DNA from: an uncultured Halieaceae bacterium
Lineage (GTDB): Bacteria > Pseudomonadota > Gammaproteobacteria > Pseudomonadales > Halieaceae
Reading direction: 5' to 3'
NCBI GenBank assembly: GCA_913031575.1
Contig: CAJWEV010000011.1
Coordinates: 1-51,012 of the forward strand
Length of the DNA stretch: 51,012 nt
Part shown: in pieces, positions 5,121 through 36,268 of the stretch
Layout of the letters: each line of letters opens with the position of its first letter
How positions within the stretch are numbered: position 1 is the stretch's first letter
Notes under the pieces: generated by a model
The model's input: only the letters and a program-made list of their open reading frames with translations
What the model was told of the DNA's origin: nothing
Database searches by the model: none
Position numbers and translations under genes: made by a program

Positions 5121-5870
5121 ATGGCAACTAAGAAGACAACTGAAACCAAGGCAGAGACGAAAGCGAAAACGGCTCCGAAAGCAAAAGCTGTGAAGGCAAA
5201 GCCCAAAGCCAAGGCAGCTGCCACGGCAAAAGTGGCACCGAAAGCGAAAGCAGCTCCCAAGAAAAAAGCCGCGAAGGCGGAGCCTCTAGCCAAGGCAGTG
5301 CCCAAGGCCAAAGCAGCGCCTGCCAATAAAGCCGAAGCGAAAGCCAAGCCTAAGAAAAAAGCAAAGGCGGCTCCAAAAGCAAAGGCAGCCCCGAAGGCTA
5401 AAGCCAATTCGAAAGCGAGAGCAGTATCAAATGTGGCTCGCGCAGTCGGTGAGGTTCAGAACTTTGAGAACTTCAAGCCATACAAGCCCTCGCGCGGTGA
5501 AAGCTACATGAACGAGGAGCAGCTCGAACATTTTCGCCAGCTTCTGCTGAGCTGGAGAGCGGACCTCGTAAATGAAGTGACCAAAACCGTTGGTCATATG
5601 AAAGACGAGGCCGCGAACTTTCCTGATCCAGCAGACCGAGCGACGCAGGAGGAAGAATTCAGCCTCGAACTGCGCGCGCGCGATCGTGAGCGCAAACTGA
5701 TCAAAAAGATCGATGGAACGTTAGAGCGAATTTCAATAGACGATTATGGTTACTGCGATGCCTGCGGCATCGAAATCGGTGTTCAACGGTTGGAAGCTAG
5801 GCCTACGGCGACGCTTTGTATTGATTGCAAAACCTTGGCAGAAATCAAGGAACGCCAAGAGCTAGGTTGA
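5121..5870 (+). CDS. dksA: RNA-polymerase-binding factor DksA with long Lys/Ala-rich N-terminal tail
   Basis: DksA binds the RNA polymerase secondary channel and with ppGpp adjusts rRNA and biosynthetic promoters. The conserved core starts near residue 112 of 249. It has the coiled coil with acidic tip residues in FPDPADRAT (Asp169 and Asp172) and the C4 zinc finger Cys212/Cys215/Cys233/Cys236 in CDACG...CIDC. DksA is normally about 150 residues. Here residues 1-108 are almost only Lys, Ala and Pro (repeats such as APKAKA), like histone H1 or AlgP tails. The ATG at 5121 is chosen because the tail is in frame and well formed, with a GGA upstream; an open frame extends to 4971 without coding character. 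gluQ follows, as in Pseudomonas. Confidence 0.93.
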   Translation: MATKKTTETKAETKAKTAPKAKAVKAKPKAKAAATAKVAPKAKAAPKKKAAKAEPLAKAVPKAKAAPANKAEAKAKPKKKAKAAPKAKAAPKAKANSKARAVSNVARAVGEVQNFENFKPYKPSRGESYMNEEQLEHFRQLLLSWRADLVNEVTKTVGHMKDEAANFPDPADRATQEEEFSLELRARDRERKLIKKIDGTLERISIDDYGYCDACGIEIGVQRLEARPTATLCIDCKTLAEIKERQELG

Positions 5871-5890
5871 TACGGGGGGGCGCTACGGAC

Positions 5891-6724
5891 TTGATCTATC
5901 GAGGACGATTTGCTCCATCGCCCACGGGCCCACTTCACATGGGCTCATTAGTTACAGCCTTAGGTAGCTACCTCGATGCTCGGTCACATGGGGGTGAGTG
6001 GCGCCTACGTATCGACGATATCGATCCACCACGTCAAAATAAAGCTAGCTTCGAATCCATTCCCTTCTGTCTGGAGAGCCATGGCCTGACCTGGGATGGC
6101 TCTATTATTCTCCAAAGCCAGCGTCGTGAAGCGCATGAGCGTGCGCTGTCCAAACTGAGAAATGCGGGTTACCTGTTCGCCTGTGGGTGTACCAGGGCAA
6201 CCTTGGGTGAGCTCGGCGCTTGTATTTCAGACTGCAGGGATCGCATCGATATTGAGGGTAGCGTCCGTTACCGTGTGCCAAATGATGTCCCGGACCTATT
6301 TGACGATCTTTTTCTCAAAAAGCCGCGAGTGTCATCCCTACCGAAGAACTTCATTGTTAAACGCAGGGATGGACTGATTGCATATCAGCTGGCAACAGCG
6401 ATCGATGACCTCGATGAGGGTTATACCCATGTGATCCGTGGCGGAGATTTACTTGAGTCGAGCCTCCGTCAAATGATTATTCATCAAGCCCTCGGACGCC
6501 TGTCCCCCAAGTACGGCCACTTACCCATCGTCACCGATCAATCAGGTAACAAGCTCAGCAAACAAACCGGCGCCCCGGCGGTGGATTTGGACACTCCCAA
6601 CGCCAACCTTCGTCTCGCACTGGGCATCCTAAGGCAGCCTAATCCCCCAAAATACATGGATTGCGTTGAGGATATTTTGCGTCACGCGACCATCAACTGG
6701 CGGCGCGATGTGCTGGCCTTTTAA
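5891..6724 (+). CDS. gluQ: glutamyl-Q tRNA(Asp) synthetase
   Basis: GluQ-Rs is a truncated glutamyl-tRNA-synthetase paralogue that attaches glutamate to queuosine at the wobble base of tRNA-Asp. The protein starts IYRGRFAPSPTGPLHMGSL, with the HIGH-type motif PLHMG. It has the zinc-site cysteines CGCTRATLGELGACISDC near residue 100, and NKLSKQ stands in for KMSKS. There is no anticodon-binding domain, as expected for the family. The start is uncertain: TTG at 5891 is preceded by a G-run about 10 bases upstream, while TTG at 5867 would overlap the dksA stop. Position next to dksA matches the usual dksA-gluQ pair. Confidence 0.9.
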   Translation: MIYRGRFAPSPTGPLHMGSLVTALGSYLDARSHGGEWRLRIDDIDPPRQNKASFESIPFCLESHGLTWDGSIILQSQRREAHERALSKLRNAGYLFACGCTRATLGELGACISDCRDRIDIEGSVRYRVPNDVPDLFDDLFLKKPRVSSLPKNFIVKRRDGLIAYQLATAIDDLDEGYTHVIRGGDLLESSLRQMIIHQALGRLSPKYGHLPIVTDQSGNKLSKQTGAPAVDLDTPNANLRLALGILRQPNPPKYMDCVEDILRHATINWRRDVLAF

Positions 6725-6823: not shown

Positions 6824-8206
6824 ATGCTTACGGTTCTCTTGCTCGACGATGACCCCATCAGTGCCACACACATAGCTGACGATCTGGCGGCTGAAGGGTT
6901 TAAAGTAATCAAAGCATCTCCCTTCTCGGCGCTGGGTGCGATCAAAACCGTGGAGCGCGTTGACGCTGCGATCCTCGATCCTGGGCGCAACGAGGCAGGC
7001 GCTAACCAGCTGATTACCGATTTGCATCCCGTTCCCGTCTTTATTCATGCACAACACGCGTCACTGAGGTCAGCGGTAGAGCTTATGAAGGCAGGAGCGC
7101 GTGATTATTGGGCGAAGCCTGCATCCATCAGAGATGTACTCGACGGTATTCGACGCGCGGCGCTTGCCACGTCACAAAACGTGGAGAGCACAGCAACTGC
7201 GGTAGAAGCCTTTGTTGGCAAATCGGTGAGCATGCGCTCCCTGATGACGATGGCAAATAAGGCAGCTAAAGCTAGCTCAACCGTTTTAATTATCGGTGAG
7301 ACGGGGACCGGAAAAGAACTCGTTGCGCGCCACATCCACCAAACCAGTGCGCGAGCTAGCAAGCCGATCATCTCGGTCAATTGCGCTGCGATTCCAGAAA
7401 CATTGATTGAATCTGAGTTATTTGGTTACGAAAAAGGGGCGTTTACAGGCGCTAATGCGCAGCGGTTAGGACTGATTGAAGCAGCCGATGGAGGCACGCT
7501 ATTCCTCGACGAAATTGGGGAATTGCCGCCCTCCGCCCAAGCCCGATTGCTGAGATTCATTCAAGAGGGAGAGATTCGACGCATTGGCTCAGTCGAGAGT
7601 GCGAGCGTCAATGTAAGGCTCATATGTGCAACTCACAGGAATCTGATGGAACTGGAGAATACCGATGCTTTCCGGCGTGATCTATTTCACCGCATCAATG
7701 TGCTGCGACTCGAATTACCTCCGTTACGGGAGCGCGGCAACGATATTGAAGGCCTTACCAACTGGTTGGTGAAACGCGTAGCAGGACGCCTTGGCGTGGA
7801 GCCCAAAACATTGTCAGACGAGGCCTACGATGCGCTGTCAGATTATAGCTGGCCCGGTAACGTACGAGAGCTTGAGCACACAATCGAACGAGCGCTCGTC
7901 ATGGCAGATGGCAATATTATTTCCATGAGCGATCTCAACCTTCCTAGTCATACCTCCTGTATAGCAACCTTCAGCACCCCACCCGCTGCCGATCTAGAAC
8001 GGGAAACCTCTAATGCGAGAGCAGGGAGTGACACTGAGGTTGAGGAGTTATCGCTCGAAGATTACTTCCAGCGTTTCGTTCTGGAAAATCAAGACGCAAT
8101 GAACGAAACAGAGCTGGCTCAGAAGCTGGGCATCAGCAGAAAGTGCCTTTGGGAGCGAAGACAACGATTCGACCTCCCCAGAAAGCGTAAGCGAGGCGCT
8201 GCCTAG
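6824..8206 (+). CDS. cbrB: CbrB-type sigma-54-dependent response regulator with altered receiver
   Basis: This NtrC-family activator has a receiver (about 1-115), an AAA+ sigma-54 interaction domain (about 130-365; Walker A GETGTGKE near 157, GAFTGA near 205, Walker B LFLDEIGE) and a Fis-type helix-turn-helix at the end (MNETELAQKLGISRKCLWER). The segment ASLRSAVELMKAGARDY, the HTH and the position just before pcnB match Pseudomonas CbrB, which controls carbon/nitrogen use. The phospho-acceptor Asp52 and Lys98 are present, but the switch Thr/Ser, expected 22 residues before Lys98, is Ala76. No kinase gene is adjacent, although cbrA normally lies between gluQ and cbrB. A ribosome site AAGGG precedes the ATG. 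CbrB assignment is from remembered synteny and motifs. Confidence 0.8.
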   Translation: MLTVLLLDDDPISATHIADDLAAEGFKVIKASPFSALGAIKTVERVDAAILDPGRNEAGANQLITDLHPVPVFIHAQHASLRSAVELMKAGARDYWAKPASIRDVLDGIRRAALATSQNVESTATAVEAFVGKSVSMRSLMTMANKAAKASSTVLIIGETGTGKELVARHIHQTSARASKPIISVNCAAIPETLIESELFGYEKGAFTGANAQRLGLIEAADGGTLFLDEIGELPPSAQARLLRFIQEGEIRRIGSVESASVNVRLICATHRNLMELENTDAFRRDLFHRINVLRLELPPLRERGNDIEGLTNWLVKRVAGRLGVEPKTLSDEAYDALSDYSWPGNVRELEHTIERALVMADGNIISMSDLNLPSHTSCIATFSTPPAADLERETSNARAGSDTEVEELSLEDYFQRFVLENQDAMNETELAQKLGISRKCLWERRQRFDLPRKRKRGAA

Positions 8207-8220
8207 CCCATCACATGGCG

Positions 8221-8267
8221 CGATAAGTAACATCATGGGTTTACTTCGGTAACACTTTTGTAATAAA
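8221..8267. promoter_or_regulatory. candidate activator-binding (UAS) region with tandem GTAACA
   Basis: GTAACA occurs at 8227-8232 and again at 8249-8254, 22 bases apart, which is two helical turns. A GGGTTTA...TAAACCC inverted repeat (about 8238-8269) surrounds the second copy. The region sits about 90-115 bases upstream of the sigma-54 promoter -12 element, a usual distance for an enhancer-binding protein. The 10-mer GGTAACACTT is shared with the cbrB upstream region. Confidence 0.45.
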
Positions 8268-8328
8268 CCCGTGCCTGCCAAGTGACTGAAAAACACTAAA
8301 ACACTGTTTTTGCAGAAAAAAATTTGAG

Positions 8329-8344
8329 TGGCATGGCAAATGCT
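8329..8344 (+). promoter_or_regulatory. sigma-54 (RpoN) promoter
   Basis: The sequence TGGCATGGCAAATGCT fits the sigma-54 consensus TGGCACGNNNNTTGCW at all but two fixed positions. The invariant GG (-24) is at 8330-8331 and the invariant GC (-12) at 8342-8343, exactly 10 bases apart. The predicted start of transcription is at about 8355. It directs transcription into an A-rich stretch that ends at a terminator before pcnB. Confidence 0.75.
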
Positions 8345-8354
8345 GCTGTCATTG

Positions 8355-8447
8355 GAGAGCCAAAATAAGAATAAGCGGCCAAATAAAAATAATATGTGTC
8401 ACTACGGACCTGGGCGGGGAAGGTAACTTCCCCCAGTTTCTTTTTTT
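8355..8447 (+). ncRNA. predicted CrcZ-like Hfq-decoy small RNA, about 93 nt
   Basis: The predicted RNA runs from the sigma-54 start to an intrinsic terminator. It holds two perfect (ARN)4 ladders, AATAAGAATAAG at 8364-8375 and AATAAAAATAAT at 8382-8393, 18 bases start to start. Both contain AANAANAA, the motif of Hfq/Crc targets in Pseudomonas. ARN triplets bind the distal face of Hfq and the 3' U-tract can bind its proximal face. In Pseudomonas the CbrB- and sigma-54-dependent decoy RNA CrcZ, about 400 nt, lies in this same cbrB-pcnB gap. No open reading frame of note is present. Existence of the transcript is inferred; the sequence elements are seen directly. An alternative is a long pcnB leader with an attenuator. 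Confidence 0.65.
8416..8447 (+). terminator. intrinsic terminator, GNRA-capped stem plus U-tract
   Basis: GGGGAAG pairs perfectly with CTTCCCC over seven base pairs, closed by the GNRA tetraloop GTAA. After three bases comes TTTCTTTTTTT. It ends the predicted small RNA and lies 19 bases before the proposed pcnB start, so it could also attenuate transcription into pcnB. Confidence 0.8.
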
Positions 8448-8465
8448 CCCTTCAAAGTATCTGAG

Positions 8466-9761
8466 TTGATAAGATCGCAGCTTGTCGCTGTCGAGTGCTC
8501 TACTTTGCAAACCATCGATTCCAGTAAGCTCATTGACCACACGGCGTTGTCGCGCGCTGCGGTCTCTGTCGTCAAACGTCTTTGTGACAATGACTACAGC
8601 GCATTCATCGTTGGTGGCGCCGTCAGGGATCTTCTCTTAGGCAAGCGACCAAAAGACTTTGATGTGGCGACCAATGCCACGCCTGAACAGGTCGTCGCAC
8701 TATTTCGCGGGTCACGCATCATTGGACGGCGATTTCAGATTGTCCATGTGCGCATGGGTAGAGAGATCATCGAAGTAACAACTTTCCGTGCTCACCACGA
8801 TGATGGAGCCCCTCAGACCGCGATTAAATCTCACAAGGGGCTGTTACTTCGCGACAATGTCTACGGAACGCTTGACCAAGATGCGGCACGGCGCGATCTC
8901 TCCATAAACGCGCTTTACCTCGATCCGGTCAATCAACTTATCCTAGACGACCTCGGTGGATTAGAAGACATCCGAAAGCGGCTCGTCCGAATCATAGGTG
9001 ACTCGGCAACTCGATACAGCGAGGATCCGGTCCGAATGCTACGCGTCGTCAGATTTGCAGCAAAACTCGGTTTTTCTATCGAGGAAAGCAGCCAAGCGGC
9101 CATTAGCAAATGTAGGCACCTGCTAGCCGATATTCCAGCTGCGCGTCTGTTCGACGAAACGCTCAAACTCTTTATGGCCGGATTCGCAGCACCCACGATT
9201 GAGCATCTAGCCAAATATGAATTATTGGAACTTCTGTTCCCTGAGACTCTAAGTGCGATGAACGATCCGTCTTCGCGCGGACTTATTCTAACGGCGATGG
9301 CGAATACGGATGCACGCGTTGCACGCGGAAAGCCAGTAACACCGGCTTTCCTCCTAGGTGCTCTGTTATGGCCTGCGGTTACTGCTAGGGGTCGTGATAT
9401 TGCCAGCGCCGGCACCCACGAGGGATCACCCATCAATGCAGCTGGCCAAATAGTAATAACGAATACGTTGCAACGAGTATCCATTCCCAAGAGATTCTCG
9501 ATTCCCATGCGGGAAATTTGGGAGCTTCAGTCCAGGCTCGAAAAATGCTCACCAAAGCGAGTGAGGTCGATCTTGTCGCAGCGACGCTTCAGAGCGGCAT
9601 TTGATTTGTTATTGCTAAGATCCGAGTCCTCGGATGAACTTAAGTCGACTGTGACATTTTGGGAAGAGCAGCAACTGCTATTCCCGGACGTGGTTGGCAG
9701 TTTGCCAGCCGCTGAGATTCCAAAGCGCAAGCGACAGCCCCACCGAAGAAAGCGCAACTAA
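8466..9761 (+). CDS. pcnB: poly(A) polymerase I
   Basis: PcnB adds 3' poly(A) tails that expose RNAs to PNPase and other decay enzymes. The nucleotidyltransferase head has IVGGAVRDLLLGKRPKDFDVAT near residues 47-66, with the catalytic DFD. The RRDLSINALYLD and YSEDPVRMLRVVRFAAKLGF motifs follow, and the C-terminus is very basic (KRKRQPHRRKRN). Length 431 is close to the family. The proposed start is TTG at 8466, with no good ribosome site; the frame is open back to 8427 without a better codon. E. coli pcnB is also known for an inefficient start codon. folK overlaps its stop by one base. Confidence 0.92.
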   Translation: MIRSQLVAVECSTLQTIDSSKLIDHTALSRAAVSVVKRLCDNDYSAFIVGGAVRDLLLGKRPKDFDVATNATPEQVVALFRGSRIIGRRFQIVHVRMGREIIEVTTFRAHHDDGAPQTAIKSHKGLLLRDNVYGTLDQDAARRDLSINALYLDPVNQLILDDLGGLEDIRKRLVRIIGDSATRYSEDPVRMLRVVRFAAKLGFSIEESSQAAISKCRHLLADIPAARLFDETLKLFMAGFAAPTIEHLAKYELLELLFPETLSAMNDPSSRGLILTAMANTDARVARGKPVTPAFLLGALLWPAVTARGRDIASAGTHEGSPINAAGQIVITNTLQRVSIPKRFSIPMREIWELQSRLEKCSPKRVRSILSQRRFRAAFDLLLLRSESSDELKSTVTFWEEQQLLFPDVVGSLPAAEIPKRKRQPHRRKRN

Positions 9762-12673: not shown

Positions 12674-14395
12674 CTACTCCGCTATACTGGGTTCGTGCAA
12701 AAAGTCCAATAATTTCTCTACCTCGCTAGGCGGCGACGCAGTTACGCGACTCACAATGAACGCTACACCAAAGTTCACGATGGCTCCCACGACACCAAAG
12801 GCATTGGGCTCAATACCGAAGAACCAGTTTGGGGACATGTTGCCAAGAAATGAGGTACCAGGGATAAACATGATGCCTTTGTGCTGGAATACATACAGTA
12901 AGGTCACTGATATCCCGGCAAGCATACCCATGACTGCACCCTCGCGATTGACCCTGCGAGCGAAGATGCCCATCAATAGTGCGGGAAACAACGAGGATGC
13001 GGCGAGCCCGAAAGCCAACGCGACCGTGCCTGCTGCAAATCCCGGCGGATTTAATCCCAAGTAACCTGCCCCCAACACCGCCGCGGCCATCGCAATTCGG
13101 GAGGCCCTGAGCTCAGCTTTCTCGGAAATTGATGGCATGTAGGTACTTTTCAACAGGTCGTGCGAGATGGCGCTCGAAATTGCCAACAGCAGGCCGGCGG
13201 CGGTAGAAAGTGCCGCCGCTAGACCACCTGCCGCCACCAGCGCAATCACCCAATTTGGAAGCTGGGCGATCTCTGGGTTGGCCAGAACCAAAATGTCATT
13301 ATCGAGTTTTGTTAACTCATTAGTTTCAGGGTCAGCCGTGTATTCGATGCGCCCATCACCGTTGAGATCTTCGACTTGAAGTAAGCCAGTTTGCTCCCAG
13401 TTCTCAAACCAAGCCGGCTTCTCCGCTATTAGGAGAGCCTGTCCGTCAGGCTGCTGCATTGTATTGACAATATTTAGCCGCGCCATCGCCGCAATCGACG
13501 GTGCCGTTGTATAAAGAATGGCGATGAATACCAACGCCCACCCAGCGGATCGCCGGGCAGCTGCCACACTAGGCACCGTGAAGAAACGAATGATGACGTG
13601 CGGCAACCCGGCAGTCCCTATCATTAGGGAGGCCGTAAATGCCATCATGTTCAATTTGCTGCCACGGATGGTTGTGGTGTATTCCTGAAAACCTAGATCA
13701 ACCAGGATCGTGTCGAGTTTGTCGAGCAAATAGACATCAGTCCCAGCAAGCGTTGATCCCAAGCCCAGTTGCGGCAGTGGGTTACCCGTCAGTTGCAAGC
13801 TAATAAAGATCGCGGGAATGGTGTAGGCGGTGATCAATACAACGTATTGAGCAATCTGAGTATAGGTAATGCCTTTCATACCGCCGAGGACCGCGTAAAA
13901 GAAGACGATAAACATGCCGATACCAAGCCCCGTCTCATAGTCAGTCTCTAAGAACCGTGAGAAGGCCACACCCACTCCTTTCATCTGACCAATGACGTAG
14001 GTCACGGAGCATAGTATCAGGCAAATAACAGCCACCACTCGCGCCGAATCGGAGTAGTAGCGCTCACCAATAAAGTCAGGGACTGTATACTTTCCGTACT
14101 TCCTTAGATAAGGCGCTATCAGCAGGGCAAGTAATACATAGCCACCTGTCCAGCCCATCAAAAATACCGAGCCACCGTACCCGTTATAGGACAGGGCAAT
14201 TAGACCCGCCATCGATATGAAGGACGCCGCAGACATCCAGTCTGCCGCTGTTGCCATGCCATTCGCAACCGGATGTACGCCACCATCAGCAACATAAAAA
14301 TCTTTTGTCGACGATGCTCGCGCAGCTATAGCAATTCCGATGTACAGCGCGAAAGTAAAACCAACAACCAAATAGATGAGAAGAGTCAGACTCAT
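12674..14395 (-). CDS. sodium:solute symporter, VC_2705 subfamily (ActP-like)
   Basis: This 573-residue integral membrane protein has about 13 hydrophobic segments and the SSS (SLC5) signatures DFYVADGGVHPVANGMATAADWMSAASFISM, VLGGMKGITYTQIAQYVVL and the later AAGGLAAALSTAAGLLLAIS. It overlaps the DUF4212 small-subunit gene by four bases, the usual pairing for this subfamily. Divergence from acs suggests acetate or another short carboxylate as substrate, but that is inference. An extra-membrane insertion near residues 325-365 contains DLNGDGRIEY, an EF-hand-like calcium loop. Confidence 0.9.
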   Translation of the reverse strand: MSLTLLIYLVVGFTFALYIGIAIAARASSTKDFYVADGGVHPVANGMATAADWMSAASFISMAGLIALSYNGYGGSVFLMGWTGGYVLLALLIAPYLRKYGKYTVPDFIGERYYSDSARVVAVICLILCSVTYVIGQMKGVGVAFSRFLETDYETGLGIGMFIVFFYAVLGGMKGITYTQIAQYVVLITAYTIPAIFISLQLTGNPLPQLGLGSTLAGTDVYLLDKLDTILVDLGFQEYTTTIRGSKLNMMAFTASLMIGTAGLPHVIIRFFTVPSVAAARRSAGWALVFIAILYTTAPSIAAMARLNIVNTMQQPDGQALLIAEKPAWFENWEQTGLLQVEDLNGDGRIEYTADPETNELTKLDNDILVLANPEIAQLPNWVIALVAAGGLAAALSTAAGLLLAISSAISHDLLKSTYMPSISEKAELRASRIAMAAAVLGAGYLGLNPPGFAAGTVALAFGLAASSLFPALLMGIFARRVNREGAVMGMLAGISVTLLYVFQHKGIMFIPGTSFLGNMSPNWFFGIEPNAFGVVGAIVNFGVAFIVSRVTASPPSEVEKLLDFLHEPSIAE

Positions 14396-14673
14396 TCCTC
14401 AAACTCCTTCTCAACGTCCACATAATCGCGCTCTAGACGTGTCATGACAGAGGAAAACGAGAAAATCAAAGCGATAAAAATGAAAATGGATCCTTGCTGC
14501 GCAAACCAGAATCCAAGCTTATAGCCGCCCAGCCTTATTACGTTGAGCGGCTCAACCAAGAGAATGCCAAACCCGAAGCTGACGACGAACCAGACAACCA
14601 GCAGGCGTAACATCAAGCTCCGCACCCTGGCCGCAAATCGCTGTAGCCGATCTACATTTTTGTCCTCAGCCAT
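14392..14673 (-). CDS. DUF4212 small membrane subunit of the symporter
   Basis: This 93-residue protein has two membrane segments (LLVVWFVVSFGFGILLV and FWFAQQGSIFIFIALIFSF), a charged N-terminus and a charged C-terminus (RLERDYVDVEKEFEE). This is the DUF4212 pattern, a small partner encoded just before VC_2705-type sodium symporters, and the same order is seen here. GGGAG lies upstream of the ATG. The 126-base gap to acs holds the divergent promoters. Confidence 0.88.
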   Translation of the reverse strand: MAEDKNVDRLQRFAARVRSLMLRLLVVWFVVSFGFGILLVEPLNVIRLGGYKLGFWFAQQGSIFIFIALIFSFSSVMTRLERDYVDVEKEFEE

Positions 14674-14799: not shown

Positions 14800-16734
14800 A
14801 TGTCTAACGAGGCCCTATATCCCGTCCCACCTAATTTTTCCGACGCGCATATTACGCCCAAGAAGTACCATGACATGTATCGTCAGTCACTGGAGGATCC
14901 AGAGACGTTTTGGAGCCAGCAAGCGAATGAGTTCCTCTCTTGGGACAGAACCTGGGATTCGTTTTGTGAGAGCGATTTATCCACAGGTCACGCACGCTGG
15001 TTCGACGGCGGAAAGCTAAACGCCTCAGTCAATTGTATTGACCGGCACCTGCCTGCTCGTGCTGAGCAAACCGCCATATTGTGGGAGGGCGATGATCCCA
15101 ACGAAATCCAACACATTACTTATCAAATGCTTAAAGAAGAGGTCTGTCGGCTCGCAAATGTCATGCATGATCGGGGTGTGCGCGCCGGTGATCGCATTTG
15201 TATTTACATGCCCATGGTGCCCGAAGCGGCCTATGCAATGCTGGCCTGCACGCGGATCGGTGCCATTCATTCGGTTGTTTTCGGTGGGTTCTCACCAGAG
15301 GCGCTTAAAGACCGAATAAACGACGCTAGTTGTCGAATGGTCATCACAGCCGACGAAGGCCTGCGGGGCGGCAAGAAGGTTCCCCTGAAAACAAATGTTG
15401 ATGCGGCGTTAGCAGATTGTCCGTCGGTCGATACAGTGATTGTACTCGAGCGCACAGGCGCTGCAATTGACTGGGCTGACGACAGAGATATCGCCTACGG
15501 CGTGAGCACTCGGGCTGCAAGTTCTGACTTCGAGCCCGTGTCCATGGACAGCGAGGCTCCGCTATTCATTCTCTACACCTCAGGTTCGACTGGAAAACCG
15601 AAGGGCGTGCTTCATACCACGGGTGGCTACTTGTTGCAGGTAGCGAGTACCTTCAAGTACGTATTCGACTACCGCGAGGGTGAGATATTTTGGTGCACCG
15701 CTGATGTCGGCTGGGTAACCGGGCACTCGTATATTGTGTATGGCCCCTTAGCGAATGGTGCTACTACCGTGATGTTTGAGGGTGTCCCCACCTACCCCGA
15801 CGGAAGTCGTTGCTGGGAGGTCATCGATAAGCACCAAATCAACACGTTCTTTACAGCACCCACAGCCATTCGTGCATTGCATGCTTTGGGAGATGATTTC
15901 GTTACTCGTTGCTCAAGGAAGAGCCTGAGAATCCTCGGTTCGGTGGGAGAACCAATTAATCCTGAAGCCTGGGAGTGGTATCACCGAGTCGTTGGCGATA
16001 GCCGCTGCCCGATTGTCGATAGCTGGTGGCAAACGGAAACAGGGGCAATGATGATCACCCCAATGCCCTCGGCTCACCCGATGAAACCGGGTTACGCCAG
16101 CTTCCCTTACTTTGGTGTCGAACCCGCCCTCCTCGATGAACAAGGTAATGAAATTGAAGGAGAAGGCGCAGGCTATCTCGTGATCAAGCGCTCATGGCCT
16201 GGGCAAATCAGAACTGTTTACGGTGATCATCAGCGACTGATCGATACCTACTTCTCGACCTACGACGGTTACTACTTCACCGGCGACGGCGCTCTGCGCG
16301 ATGCGGACGGCTACCTCCGAATTACCGGACGCGTGGATGACGTACTCAATGTGTCGGGGCACCGCATGGGTACAGCTGAAGTGGAGAGCGCGCTCGTGCT
16401 TCACAATGATATTTCGGAAGCGGCAGTGGTTGGCTATCCGCACCCAATCAAGGGGCAAGGTATATACTGCTATGTCACACCGGTGACCGGTGTGGAGGAT
16501 TCGCCAGAGTTACGCGCTGAACTCGTTCGGCTTTGCGTTAGGGAGATTGGTCCTATTGCCAAGCCTGATGTCATTCAGTGGGCGCCTGGCCTACCTAAAA
16601 CACGATCAGGAAAAATTATGCGCCGTATCTTGCGAAAAATTGCTGAAAATGAGCTTGATAGCCTGGGGGACACCTCCACCCTATCCGACCCGTCGATTGT
16701 TGACCAATTGGTAGCGGGTCGCGAAACAGTCTAA
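14800..16734 (+). CDS. acs: acetyl-CoA synthetase (AMP-forming)
   Basis: Acs activates acetate to acetyl-CoA through acetyl-AMP. The protein has 644 residues, normal for Acs. The P-loop-like [21 protein letters not shown] lies near residue 258, [10 protein letters not shown] and [15 protein letters not shown] in the middle, and [13 protein letters not shown] near 605 contains the catalytic Lys that is acetylated for control in this family. AAGGA lies before the ATG at 14800. Neighbouring divergent symporter genes suggest an acetate uptake and activation unit. A shared terminator separates it from pnp. Confidence 0.96.
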
Positions 16735-20850: not shown

Positions 20851-23565
20851 CTACAGAGACCGGGCAACTTCGTTGACATCGTATACTTCGATGAGGTCGC
20901 CCACTTTTACGTCGGTGTAGTTCTTGACGCCGATGCCACACTCGGTTCCGCTCCGAACCTCGTTCGCATCGTCCTTGAAGCGACGTAGCGACTCGAGCTC
21001 TCCCTCGTAAATAACGATATTGTCTCGCAAAACGCGAATGGGCTTGGAGCGATAGACTGTCCCCTCTGTCACCATGCACCCAGCGATAAGACCAAACTTC
21101 GGCGAGCGGAAGACATCCCGTACCTCCGCGATACCAACAATCTCCTCGCGTAACTCTGGCGACAACATACCAGACAAGGCGGCCTTAACGTCGTCAATGA
21201 GATCGTAAATGACATTATAGTAACGAACCTCTACTCCCTCATTTTCAGCAAGACCACGCGCCTTAGCGTCGGCTCGTGTATTGAAGCCGAAGATAACCGC
21301 ATTACTAGTTATAGCAAGCGATATATCAGTCTCGGTGATCCCACCAACACCGCCAGCAACCACATTGACTTTAACCTCTTCATTGCCTAGATCAGACAAT
21401 GAAGACTGAAGTGCTTCAAGTGAACCCCGCACATCGGCCTTGATGACAATATTCAGCAACCGCACCTCACCAGCAGTCATCGTCTCAAACATGCTGTCTA
21501 GCTTGGCTGCTTGTTGACGAGCCAGCTTACTTGACCGCTGCTTCTCTTGCCGAAAATCCGCAATTTCGCGAGCGCGCTTTTCACTCTCAACGGCAACGAA
21601 GGGGTCACCCGCATCAGGCGTCCCATTAAGACCTAGAATCTCCACAGGGATGCTCGGACCGGCAACTGTCACAGGCTGTCCATTTTCATCCAGCATGGCT
21701 CTAACACGACCGTATTGTAATCCTGCAAGAATGATATCGCCCTGATTCAAGGCGCCTTGCTGTACCAATAGGGATGCTACAGGGCCGCGCCCTCGATCAA
21801 GCCGCGACTCAATCACTAGACCGCTGGCTGGAACGTCAGCCGGTGCTTTCAATTCCAGCAACTCCGACTGCAGCAAGAGCGCCTCAAGAAGGGTATCAAT
21901 ACCTTCACCCGTGTGCGCTGAGACCGGGATAAACTGAGTATCACCACCCCAATCCTCTGGAATCACCTCTTTTGCTGCCAACTCGTTTTTGACCCGGTCG
22001 GGATCAGCGCCCTCCTTATCCATCTTGTTAACTGCAACAACCAATGGCACCCCAGCTGCTCGCGCGTGCTGCACCGCTTCTTCTGTCTGCGGCATCACGC
22101 CATCGTCCGCAGCAACCACTAAAACAACGATGTCCGTGGACTTAGCGCCTCGTGCGCGCATAGCAGTAAAGGCTGCGTGACCAGGCGTGTCGAGGAAAGT
22201 GATCATGCCCATATCGGTCTTCACATGGTATGCACCGATATGCTGCGTTATGCCACCCGCCTCACCGACAGCGACACGTGAGCTTCGAATGCAGTCGAGC
22301 AATGATGTCTTACCGTGATCGACGTGGCCCATTACAGTCACTACAGGTGCACGAAGTTCAGGGGTGCCCTCTTGGCTTGCGAGAGATTCCTCCAACTGCT
22401 CCTCGAGCGCATCATCGCTCTTCAACTTGATGCGATGGCCTAGTTCCTCTACTACAAGACTTGCTGTGTCTTGATCAATCATTTGGTTAATAGTTGCCAT
22501 TACACCAAGCTTCATCAGCTCCTTAATCACTACACCCGCTTTCACCGCCATCTGCTGCGCAAGATCACCCACGCTGATATTTTCTGGCAACTCGACGTCG
22601 TAAATAATCTTCTCGGTAGGCTGCTCAAACGCATGCTGATTCGGCTCGTCACCAATGCGTCGTCGCTTACCGACACGTGCACGCCCCATCCCTGATTCAG
22701 CTGCTTCAATATCGCTTAGCGACAGGTTGTGGCCTCTCTGCTTTCCGCGACCACCCGACATGTTTGAGCGATCTAAACGCCCCCGGCTAGGCTTTCGCCG
22801 ATTATCATCCGAATCGCGCCCGTTATCTTTTGAAGGCGCCTCGTGTAAGCGCTTTGGCCTTTTTTCACTTTGTGTTGATGCCGCTTTTTCGGCAGCGGCC
22901 GTCTTCTGAGCTACCTCTTGCTCGGCCCTCTTCCGCTCCTCGTCCACTTTTCGCGCTGCGACCGCATCCTCCAACTTACGTTGACGGTCGTCTTCCTCGG
23001 CACGTCGTCGTTCAGCTGCACGCTGCCGAAGTACCTCGGGGTCCAAATTACGCAGGTCTTCCTCTGTCTCCGCGACGCCCTCAGTCAATGGCGCAACATC
23101 TTCTTGTGCATCCACGGTTTCGGCTGTCTTGGCAGCGTCGGTCGCTTGAGCAGCGGCTTCCAGTGTATCGATCTCCACCGCAGGTTTTGCAGAAGCCGCG
23201 GGCTCCGCAGCTATCTCTGCCGCAGGCACCACTCCTGGCACTTCAGGCTCGACAACTTCCTCCGCTTCGGGACGCTTAACGTAAGTCCGCTTCTTTCGAA
23301 CCTCAACATTCACCGTGCGCTTGCCGGAGCTGCCACCCGTTTTGAGGGTGCTTACCGACTTGCGCTTCAAGGTGATTTTTCTAGGCGCTGCTTCCTCGCT
23401 ACCGTGGCTTCGCTTCAAATGGGCAAGCAACGTGCGCTTGTCATCATCAGAGACAACCTCGTCCGCCTTGATATGGGGAAGGCCCGCATCCCTCATCTGC
23501 GAAAGCAGCTTATCGGAGTCTGTTCCCACGGTCTTTGCTAACTGCTCTACCGTTACTTCAGCCAT
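20851..23565 (-). CDS. infB: translation initiation factor IF-2
   Basis: IF-2 is the GTPase that places fMet-tRNA on the 30S subunit. The protein has 904 residues. The N-terminal fold [21 protein letters not shown] is followed by a long charged linker and a GTPase domain with GHVDHGKTS (G1), DTPGH (G3) and NKMDKE (G4). The C-terminal fMet-tRNA-binding domains carry [16 protein letters not shown] near the end. The operon starts with the initiator tRNA gene, linking the factor with its tRNA. Confidence 0.98.
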
Positions 23566-34726: not shown

Positions 34727-36268
34727 CTAGTAGTCTCTATCGGCGAACGATGCTTTTTCACGCGCCATGAAATCTAGTAGCGCCTCATCAATGGCTGGAT
34801 CGAGAGCCGGCGGCTCGTAGTCCGCCAACATTTGCTTCCAAAGGCTGTTCGCCCGCTGCGCAGCGTCCAAGCTGCCTTCAGCTGACCACTGCTCAAAACT
34901 GTTGTTATCGGCAATGTTCGAGCGATAGAACGCCGATTCAAAATTGCTTAGCGTGTGTGCGGAACCTAGGAAGTGCTTGCCCGGGCCCACCTCATGGAAT
35001 GCATCCATTGCCTGAGCGTTTTCAGAGAGATCCATCCCCCCAAGTAAGACTGCGATCATATTCGCTTGATCGCAGTCCATCACAAATTTCTCATAGCCGA
35101 CTGCCAGGCCACCCTCGAGCCAGCCAGCCGTGTGCAACATGAAGTTAACGCCTGCTAGAGCCGCTGTCTGTAGGGTGTTAGCCGCCTCGTAAGCCGCTTG
35201 TGCATCTGGCAGCTTCGAGGCACATAAACCTCCACCACTCCGATAAGGCACACCAAGTCGACGTGCTAGCGCCGCTGTCGCATAAATGACCTGACTGGGC
35301 TCTGGCGTGCCGAATGTTGGTGCACCCGTCGCCATAGACACTGCCGCTGCAAAGGTGCCGAAGACAACCGGACATCCGGGACGGATGAGCTGCGTGAGCG
35401 CAATACCGGCCATCGCTTCTGCGAGAATCTGAGTACAAGTTCCAGCCACCGTAACTGGCGACATCGCACCTGCCAAAATGAAAGGCGATACTACACAAGA
35501 CTGATTGTTTCTTGCGTAGACCTTCAACGACCCCAACATCGTCCCGTCAAATACTAAGGGCGAGTTGACGTTGATTAGGCTAGTGAAAACACAGTTCTGA
35601 TCGACGAACTCATCACCGAACACAAGCTTCGCCATATCAACTGAATCTTGCGCGCGGCGATGGTGTGTTACCGAACCCATCAGTGGCTTGTCACTGAATT
35701 TGAAATGGCTGTACACCATGTCGTAGTGACGCTTGTTCACCGGCAGATCCACCGGCTCACACACGGTTCCACCCGAGTGGTGAAGGCCAGGCGCCATATA
35801 GGCCAGCTTTACAAAATTCCTGAAATCTTCGATCGTCGAGTAGCGGCGGCCGTTATCCAAATCATGAGCAAACGGGGATCCATACGCTGGTACCAGCACC
35901 GTATTTTTCCCACCGATCGTCACACTGCGCTCTGGGTTGCGCGCATGCTGGACGTATTCTGATGGTGCCGTGGCTTGAATAATCTCTCGGCACATACCTC
36001 GCGGGAAACGCACGCGAGTTCCATCAACATTGGCACCCGCCGCCTTGAAGAGCTCTAATACTTCGGGGTCATCAAGAAAATCGATGCCGACTTCCTCGAG
36101 CAGTCGATCCGCATTGTCCTCAATGAGCTGAAGACCTTCTTCACTCAGAATTTCAACGTAGGGAATCTTTCGTTTGATGAAGGGTGCGCTAGCCGGTCCT
36201 GCGTTGGCTCTCGCCTCACGACGACCTGTACGACCGCCTCCTTTTCGTCGTCCTGCTCGCTCGCTCAT
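34727..36268 (-). CDS. MttB-family (trimethylamine/betaine) methyltransferase, non-pyrrolysine
   Basis: The family takes a methyl group from a quaternary or tertiary amine and gives it to a Co(I) corrinoid protein. The 513-residue protein has the MttB-like start region RKIPYVEILSEEGLQLIEDNADRLLEEVGIDF and the central TIM-barrel segments PGLHHSGGTVCEPVDLP, CVVSPFILAGAMSPVTVAG and GGGLCASKLPDAQAAYEA. The frame has no internal TAG, so no pyrrolysine. Non-Pyl members known to me act on glycine betaine, proline betaine, carnitine and similar betaines. The first 25 residues are Arg/Gly-rich. It heads the cluster. Substrate is unknown. Confidence 0.9.
   Translation of the reverse strand: MSERAGRRKGGGRTGRREARANAGPASAPFIKRKIPYVEILSEEGLQLIEDNADRLLEEVGIDFLDDPEVLELFKAAGANVDGTRVRFPRGMCREIIQATAPSEYVQHARNPERSVTIGGKNTVLVPAYGSPFAHDLDNGRRYSTIEDFRNFVKLAYMAPGLHHSGGTVCEPVDLPVNKRHYDMVYSHFKFSDKPLMGSVTHHRRAQDSVDMAKLVFGDEFVDQNCVFTSLINVNSPLVFDGTMLGSLKVYARNNQSCVVSPFILAGAMSPVTVAGTCTQILAEAMAGIALTQLIRPGCPVVFGTFAAAVSMATGAPTFGTPEPSQVIYATAALARRLGVPYRSGGGLCASKLPDAQAAYEAANTLQTAALAGVNFMLHTAGWLEGGLAVGYEKFVMDCDQANMIAVLLGGMDLSENAQAMDAFHEVGPGKHFLGSAHTLSNFESAFYRSNIADNNSFEQWSAEGSLDAAQRANSLWKQMLADYEPPALDPAIDEALLDFMAREKASFADRDY

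Follow-up and report, generated by a model that had tools for sequence, protein, structure and literature searches.

The window, by which we mean the whole stretch of 51,012 nucleotides analysed here (contig CAJWEV010000011.1 of an uncultured Halieaceae bacterium), contains a predicted small RNA gene in the gap between a gene for a CbrB-type regulator and pcnB. The genes next to the regulator (gluQ, pcnB and folK) each match their own family. The features of the locus, with positions in the window, are the following:

5825..6724, + strand: gluQ, located directly 5' of the regulator gene, with no space left for cbrA.
6824..8206, + strand: CbrB-type sigma-54 activator of 460 aa, whose receiver keeps the phospho-Asp and carries Ala at the site where Thr is conserved.
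8227..8232, + strand: CbrB-type R subsite GTAACA, at -102 relative to the first base of the TGGCA box (motif as given in passages of PMC6296734).
8249..8254, + strand: CbrB-type R subsite GTAACA, at -80 (motif from the same passages of PMC6296734).
8329..8344, + strand: sigma-54 -24/-12 promoter TGGCATGGCAAATGCT, a sequence match with GG at 8330-8331, N10 and GC at 8342-8343.
8355..8447, + strand: predicted mini-CrcZ RNA of about 93 nt, with its start placed by the -12 element and its end by the T tract.
8364..8375, + strand: (ARN)4 ladder 1, AATAAGAATAAG, located in the loop of a weak stem of three pairs (GCC/GGC).
8382..8393, + strand: (ARN)4 ladder 2, AATAAAAATAAT, which begins 18 nt after ladder 1.
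8405..8413, + strand: conserved non-ladder element CGGACCTGG, 5' of the hairpin.
8416..8447, + strand: terminator-like hairpin GGGGAAG-GTAA-CTTCCCC with a T-rich tail (from the sequence and a terminator prediction).
8466..9761, + strand: pcnB, encoding poly(A) polymerase, the syntenic marker on the 3' side; 8466 is its first possible start and the true one may lie further in.

A sequence-only reading of the window had described a sigma-54 box with exact GG-N10-GC spacing and a start at about 8355, two perfect 12-base (ARN)4 ladders, and a seven-pair stem with a GTAA tetraloop and a U-tract. We found all of these elements at the positions listed. The stem GGGGAAG/CTTCCCC with its GTAA loop covers 8416-8433, is extended by outer CTG/CAG pairs and is followed by TTTCTTTTTTT. 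No sigma-70-like site was found in 8150-8560. Furthermore, the search for a small protein inside the RNA was negative in the 49 sequences from the genus of the window, where the longest closed ATG frames have 0-17 codons and are unconserved.

Counted within the window, the motifs of the RNA are not in excess. The ladder pattern AANAANAANAA has two matches in the 51 kb, both inside the RNA, and 1.63 matches are expected. The -24/-12 pattern likewise has two matches (the second at 22045) compared to 0.60 expected, and two or more are not rare, since they occurred in 11 of 100 shuffles. The stability of the RNA fold is not unusual (z 0.35). Both motif counts would be compatible with an A-rich spacer in which a promoter-like match has arisen by chance. 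The relatives of the window, however, speak against such a fortuitous origin, as described in the following.

We sought the regulator in 146 genomes and examined 130 best-match neighbourhoods, which comprise 30 (including the window's own locus), 80 and 20 loci from three successive rounds. In a strict test, the 1100 nt located 3' of each regulator were screened for TGGCAY-N6-TGC and then at least two ladders within 20-170 nt. This test is passed by 108 of the 130 loci and by none of 2600 shuffles. By group, the loci that pass are 48 of 49 in the genus, 26 of 30 in the rest of the family and 34 of 51 in other families. Thus, regulator-linked sigma-54-type ladder RNAs are detected in 28 of the 41 other families of the order that were examined (45 in the sample), in addition to most of Halieaceae. 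The 22 failures, of which other families account for 17 (out of their 51 loci), include loci at contig ends (L059, L098 and L307), loci with a degenerate ladder (L031, L054 and L088) and loci with no box match or no ladders (e.g. L096, L097 and L103). As each locus was chosen by its best match, some of the misses in other families may involve regulators that are not orthologs of CbrB. The sequence-only reading had named a lack of conservation of the box and the ladders in close relatives as the finding that would speak against it; both turned out to be conserved.

The conservation extends over most of the RNA. In the 17 closest loci (L002-L018, window included), positions 8357-8440 have a mean column identity of 0.975, and 71 of the 84 columns are invariant. 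Identity is lower in the box (0.93), the upstream subsites (0.87), the stretch between box and start (0.77), and the other spacers and the tail (0.64-0.76). The earlier expectation that promoter, ladders and terminator are conserved thus held, whereas the accompanying expectation that the rest varies did not, since nearly the whole RNA, including a GACCUGG element, is conserved in these loci. The arrangement of the elements and their presence in relatives put the RNA gene far beyond chance, which the motif counts in the window do not. Given this near-invariance and the result of the shuffles, we regard an origin as a chance spacer as extremely improbable.

A covariance model built from the 49 genus sequences detects exactly one copy of the RNA in 52 of 57 genus genomes, and the five misses are genomes that are 54-83% complete. 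The same model matches in 27 of 34 genomes from the rest of the family and in 6 of 55 genomes of other families; the loci of Spongiibacter thalassae and Dasania are also matched. In the window's genome, the covariance model search found no extra CrcX/CrcY-like copies. A second model, applied to 370 genomes of the class, matched only in the window's genome. It also missed genome G110, which has a CrcZ of 307 bits, and its silence therefore says little about absence elsewhere. Synteny is conserved as well: in 97 of 110 loci, the fetched stretch includes pcnB on the 3' side of the regulator. We conclude that the regulator-linked ladder RNA recurs across the order and is not an isolated case.

Zooming into the anatomy of the RNA, the spacing between the starts of the two AANAANAA cores is 18 nt in 41 of the 49 genus sequences and 24 nt in the remaining 8. 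The GCC/GGC stem that closes ladder 1 is formable in 49/49 genus sequences, with G-U changes in 12 cells. No compensatory double change was found in any predicted pair, and RNAalifold, applied to the family alignment, returned the 3' hairpin only and no covarying ladder stem. Across 25 further loci of the family, the ladder-1 hairpin has arms of differing sequence; pairing each arm with its own partner gives on average -5.0 kcal/mol, compared to -2.6 kcal/mol with swapped partners (sd 0.39; 0/300). This arm-swap control, in which relatedness among the loci is not removed, supports the predicted ladder-1 hairpin.

The element GACCUGG, located before the hairpin, is invariant in 49/49 genus sequences. 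In the form GA[C/T]CTGG-N1-3-GGGG it is found in 84 of 110 loci, and 4 more loci have a looser form. The sequence GGACCUGG ahead of the hairpin (8405-8413) also contains GGA. Such strong conservation would be expected if the transcript were a base-pairing sRNA with GACCUGG as its seed and with ladders that serve only for its loading onto Hfq. Many loci from other families, including the Pseudomonas-like L107, nevertheless have ladders and box but no such element, and GACCUGG is thus not the shared core function. We consider the seed reading very unlikely.

In the genus, the RNA consists of a single ladder-hairpin module. Many of the loci L025-L055, L116, L117 and L119 contain repeats of the ladder-ladder-GACCUGG-hairpin module downstream of the first hairpin. 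Compared to the repeated modules in other genera of the family, the genus RNA looks reduced. In addition, L106, from another family, has a second, weaker sigma-54 box with ladders 3' of the regulator.

The position of the RNA raises the alternative that it mainly serves as a leader acting on pcnB in cis. Transcription from the sigma-54 promoter would then read through a partial terminator, and the ladders would let Hfq control termination or the translation of pcnB. In the window, about 19 nt separate the end of the T tail from the first possible pcnB start, and the T-tract 3' of the hairpin is interrupted in many relatives, so that termination may be partial. The window copy, however, has a good T-tract. 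Furthermore, the gap to pcnB varies among relatives from about 245 to 1020 nt, whereas the layout of box, ladders and hairpin is constant within the family. Repeats of the ladder-hairpin module in other genera of the family do not fit a leader well either, nor do the four loci from other families (L067, L095, L101 and L109) that hold two tandem strict sigma-54 boxes, each with ladders. Function mainly as a pcnB leader is thus very unlikely.

Evidence on the activator comes from the region upstream of the box. F and R subsites of CbrB are described for P. putida in passages of PMC6296734. Within 140 nt 5' of the box, we observed 210 occurrences of GTAACA/TGTTAC compared to 15.3 expected. This count covers 105 loci, as 5 of the 110 loci had no box match and were dropped, and the 20 loci of the later round were left out. 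The subsites are mostly located at about -102 and -80. The window has sequence matches to GTAACA at both places, R1 (-102) and R2 (-80), and a perfect F1 subsite TGTTAC is absent from the window. The same layout is found at the Pseudomonas-like locus L107, with TGTTAC at -124, GTAACA at -103 and GTAACG at -80.

The gap between regulator and pcnB of L107 has an Rfam CrcZ match of 307 bits. At the gathering threshold, Rfam detects no sRNA in the window. Among 4227 families, CrcZ is the sole match with E<1 in 8200-8500 (14.2 bits, E 0.07, positions 259-380 of 398), and this score does not reach the CrcZ gathering score of 95 bits. We thus do not claim membership in the Rfam CrcZ family. RF01675 scores over its cut-off in 3 of the 146 genomes and at E 1e-3 in 27 of them, and the window's genome is in neither set.

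We furthermore found that the window's genome encodes the expected protein partners. Hfq has its best PDB match in 1u1s (residues 1-73). The Crc-like protein has its best PDB match in 4jg3 (Catabolite repression control protein; 2.3e-51); we take both PDB entries to be P. aeruginosa proteins. For the Crc-like protein, the Exodeoxyribonuclease III entry 2myi follows close behind (3.5e-50) and the NCBIfam score is over the xth cut-off; when the sequences are read by eye, the catalytic motifs of exonuclease III appear to be lost. Its gene lies between ORFs that read by eye as pyrE and rph, and a match at E 2e-89 or better is present in 51 of 57 genus genomes. RpoN is also encoded. The sequence-only reading of a reduced RNA of about 93 nt, resembling CrcZ outside Pseudomonas, is therefore supported by position, box, subsites, ladders, hairpin, the weak CrcZ match and the genes for Hfq, the Crc-like protein and RpoN. 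A mode of action like that of CrcZ seems highly probable to us.

A search for targets of such an RNA started from 141 matches to AANAANAANAA in the window's genome. Among the 100 matches listed, 81 sites were examined, after 17 that overlap or adjoin others and the 2 matches in the RNA itself had been set aside. Ladders are located at ORF starts in 15 of 81 cases in sense and 11 of 81 in antisense orientation among the matches listed, which is no significant enrichment. Pfam matches were obtained for 14 of the 15 ORFs in sense and for 8 of the 11 in antisense orientation; some ORFs begin inside a domain and are thus not true starts. Candidate Hfq/Crc targets with a ladder just 5' of the start are an amidase, a sugar-type MFS transporter, an SNF symporter, an enoyl-CoA hydratase and an acyl-CoA dehydrogenase. 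Further candidates with a 5' ladder are a carboxylesterase, a RidA-type protein, a glutathione transferase, an FAD oxidoreductase and an ORF with no Pfam match (the ten candidate loci are L200, L198, L277, L238, L258, L259, L271, L255, L257 and L245). At the amidase gene, 8 of 14 genomes keep the (ARN)4 ladder in the same position, which amounts to partial conservation.

We favour, with a probability of roughly 0.8, the reading that the region encodes a short CrcZ-type decoy RNA that is transcribed with sigma-54, activated by CbrB and acts on Hfq. In the mechanism that we infer, CbrB would bind the upstream GTAACA subsites and activate RNA polymerase-sigma-54 at 8329-8344. The resulting transcript of about 93 nt would extend to the terminator-like hairpin, and its two (ARN)4 ladders would bind Hfq at the distal face, with Crc as a probable partner. 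Titration of Hfq would then lift the repression of mRNAs that have similar ladders at their translation starts. The input step, which involves a CbrA-free CbrB and the gating of the RNA, is the least certain part of this mechanism.

The kinase expected at the input step was not found in the genus. In Pseudohaliea rubra (L117), which by taxonomy belongs to Halieaceae, a gene that ends 9 bases ahead of the regulator frame encodes a protein with histidine kinase domains and a length of at least 982 aa. The N-terminal half of this protein is membrane-transporter-like by eye and has no Pfam match. We call this kinase CbrA because it has 49% identity, over 2-960 of 982 residues, to the protein directly before the regulator in the CrcZ-bearing G110. 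With the L117 protein as query (E 1e-60 or better), CbrA was found in 0 of 57 genus genomes, compared to 73 of 146 genomes overall. Furthermore, the distance between gluQ and the regulator is 46-153 nt in the 48 of 49 genus loci where gluQ is seen, which is too small for cbrA. The statement that the RNA is CbrB-dependent as in Pseudomonas thus cannot mean activation by CbrA.

The receiver domain of CbrB follows the presence of the kinase. Among the 110 aligned regulators, the residues Asp/Thr/Lys are intact in 58/58 regulators of genomes with a CbrA match and altered in 52/52 of those with no match. The altered receivers comprise 17 with Asp/Ala/Lys (window included), 15 with Glu/Thr/Lys, 19 with Gly together with Leu or Ser and Arg, and one with Asn/Thr/Lys. 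All 49 genus loci have an altered receiver. The regulator of the window matches Pfam Response_reg with 27.1 bits, below the cut-off of 30.2. Compared to L107, receiver identity is 73% in the 29 family members with CbrA and 31, 55 and 16% in three groups of the genus; in the genus, the DNA-binding domain remains 79-84% identical to that of L107. Beyond the genus, a CbrA match is likewise lacking in G083 (Asn) and in the pair G102/G143 (Glu), and a quick tree places them apart from the genus. G102 and G143 pass the strict RNA test; G083 fails it, yet has a covariance-model match with E 1.8e-4.

The simplest reading of these observations would be that CbrB became independent of CbrA, and Glu in the receiver may mimic phosphorylation. 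With CbrA not found and the receiver decayed, CbrB probably acts without CbrA, and the RNA would be constitutive or set by a different input, for example the amount of CbrB, IHF or the supply of sigma-54. A broader proposal, to which we give an even chance, is that in the genus, and in no fewer than two other lineages (G083; G102 with G143), the Hfq decoy branch of carbon catabolite repression operates without its sensor. CbrA would have been lost and the receiver would no longer be phosphorylated in the usual way (Asp replaced by Glu, Gly or Asn, or Thr by Ala), while CbrB sites, promoter and ladder RNA would have been kept, in the genus as a single minimal and near-unchanged module. CbrB would then be a kinase-free activator, the RNA a fixed or differently gated Hfq buffer and the GACCUGG hairpin a second functional site.

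Two other regions of the window may be mentioned. A VC_2705-type sodium/solute symporter with a small partner ORF lies beside a 644-aa ORF, which reads by eye as an acyl/acetyl-CoA synthetase (12674-14673, - strand, and 14800-16734, + strand); this region is a putative carbon-uptake cluster near the RNA. Rfam PYLIS_3, the pyrrolysine insertion element of mttB, scores above threshold at 35128-35226 (- strand). The match is inside an open frame of 513 aa (34727-36268, - strand) that needs no read-through, and our guess is that this frame probably encodes a non-pyrrolysine methyltransferase of the MttB family.

In passages of a 2022 review (PMC8871633), the Cbr system, crcZ included, is termed unique to Pseudomonadaceae, and passages of a 2018 paper (PMC6296734) term CbrAB exclusive to the Pseudomonaceae. 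Despite this view, the Cbr/CrcZ-type arrangement, as judged from genome sequences, recurs in this order. In the open-licence PMC literature, we found no paper on CrcZ in Marinobacter, Cellvibrio or Alcanivorax; one metatranscriptome paper that connects CbrB with Marinobacter counts cbrA/cbrB transcripts. If the RNAs act as predicted, Hfq titration would be a widespread device of carbon control beyond Pseudomonas, and the window would provide studies of Hfq-Crc with a naturally minimal decoy of about 93 nt. The locus would also be a natural experiment on a two-component system that has lost its kinase and keeps its output RNA.

Compared to published CrcZ, what is new here is the length, the number of modules, the extra element and the missing kinase, whereas the place, the promoter logic and the ladder chemistry are the same. 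The RNA resembles CrcZ (RF01675; Pseudomonas, Azotobacter) in lying between cbrB and pcnB and in its sigma-54 promoter, A-rich Hfq motifs and 3' hairpin, and GTAACA, a putative CbrB subsite, occupies both R positions (R1 and R2). It has two ladders only, whereas Pseudomonas CrcZ carries more A-rich Hfq motifs than two. In addition, the window RNA contains GACCUGG, which is absent from the Pseudomonas-like L107, and its genome has no detected CbrA. From the box to the terminator-like hairpin, the window RNA has a predicted length of about 93 nt, whereas passages of PMC8395346 give CrcZ a length of 407 nt and describe it as an Hfq decoy that is encoded between cbrB and pcnB and depends on RpoN and CbrB.

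CrcY and CrcX of Pseudomonas are likewise decoys with A-rich motifs. They are additional homologs whose genes sit elsewhere in Pseudomonas genomes, whereas here a single copy is located at the cbrB-pcnB position. CrcY is driven by CbrB and sigma-54 according to passages of PMC8871633, PMC6296734 and PMC8395346. The locus is similar to the CbrA-CbrB system in the neighbours of the regulator, the subsites and the DNA-binding domain, whereas the genus differs in having no detected kinase and an altered receiver. Other decoys that titrate a regulator in this way are RsmY/RsmZ and CsrB, which present GGA motifs to RsmA/CsrA, whereas the window RNA has ARN ladders predicted to serve Hfq. What these RNAs would share with the window RNA is the titration of a translational repressor, a mode of action described in passages of PMC8395346 and predicted here.
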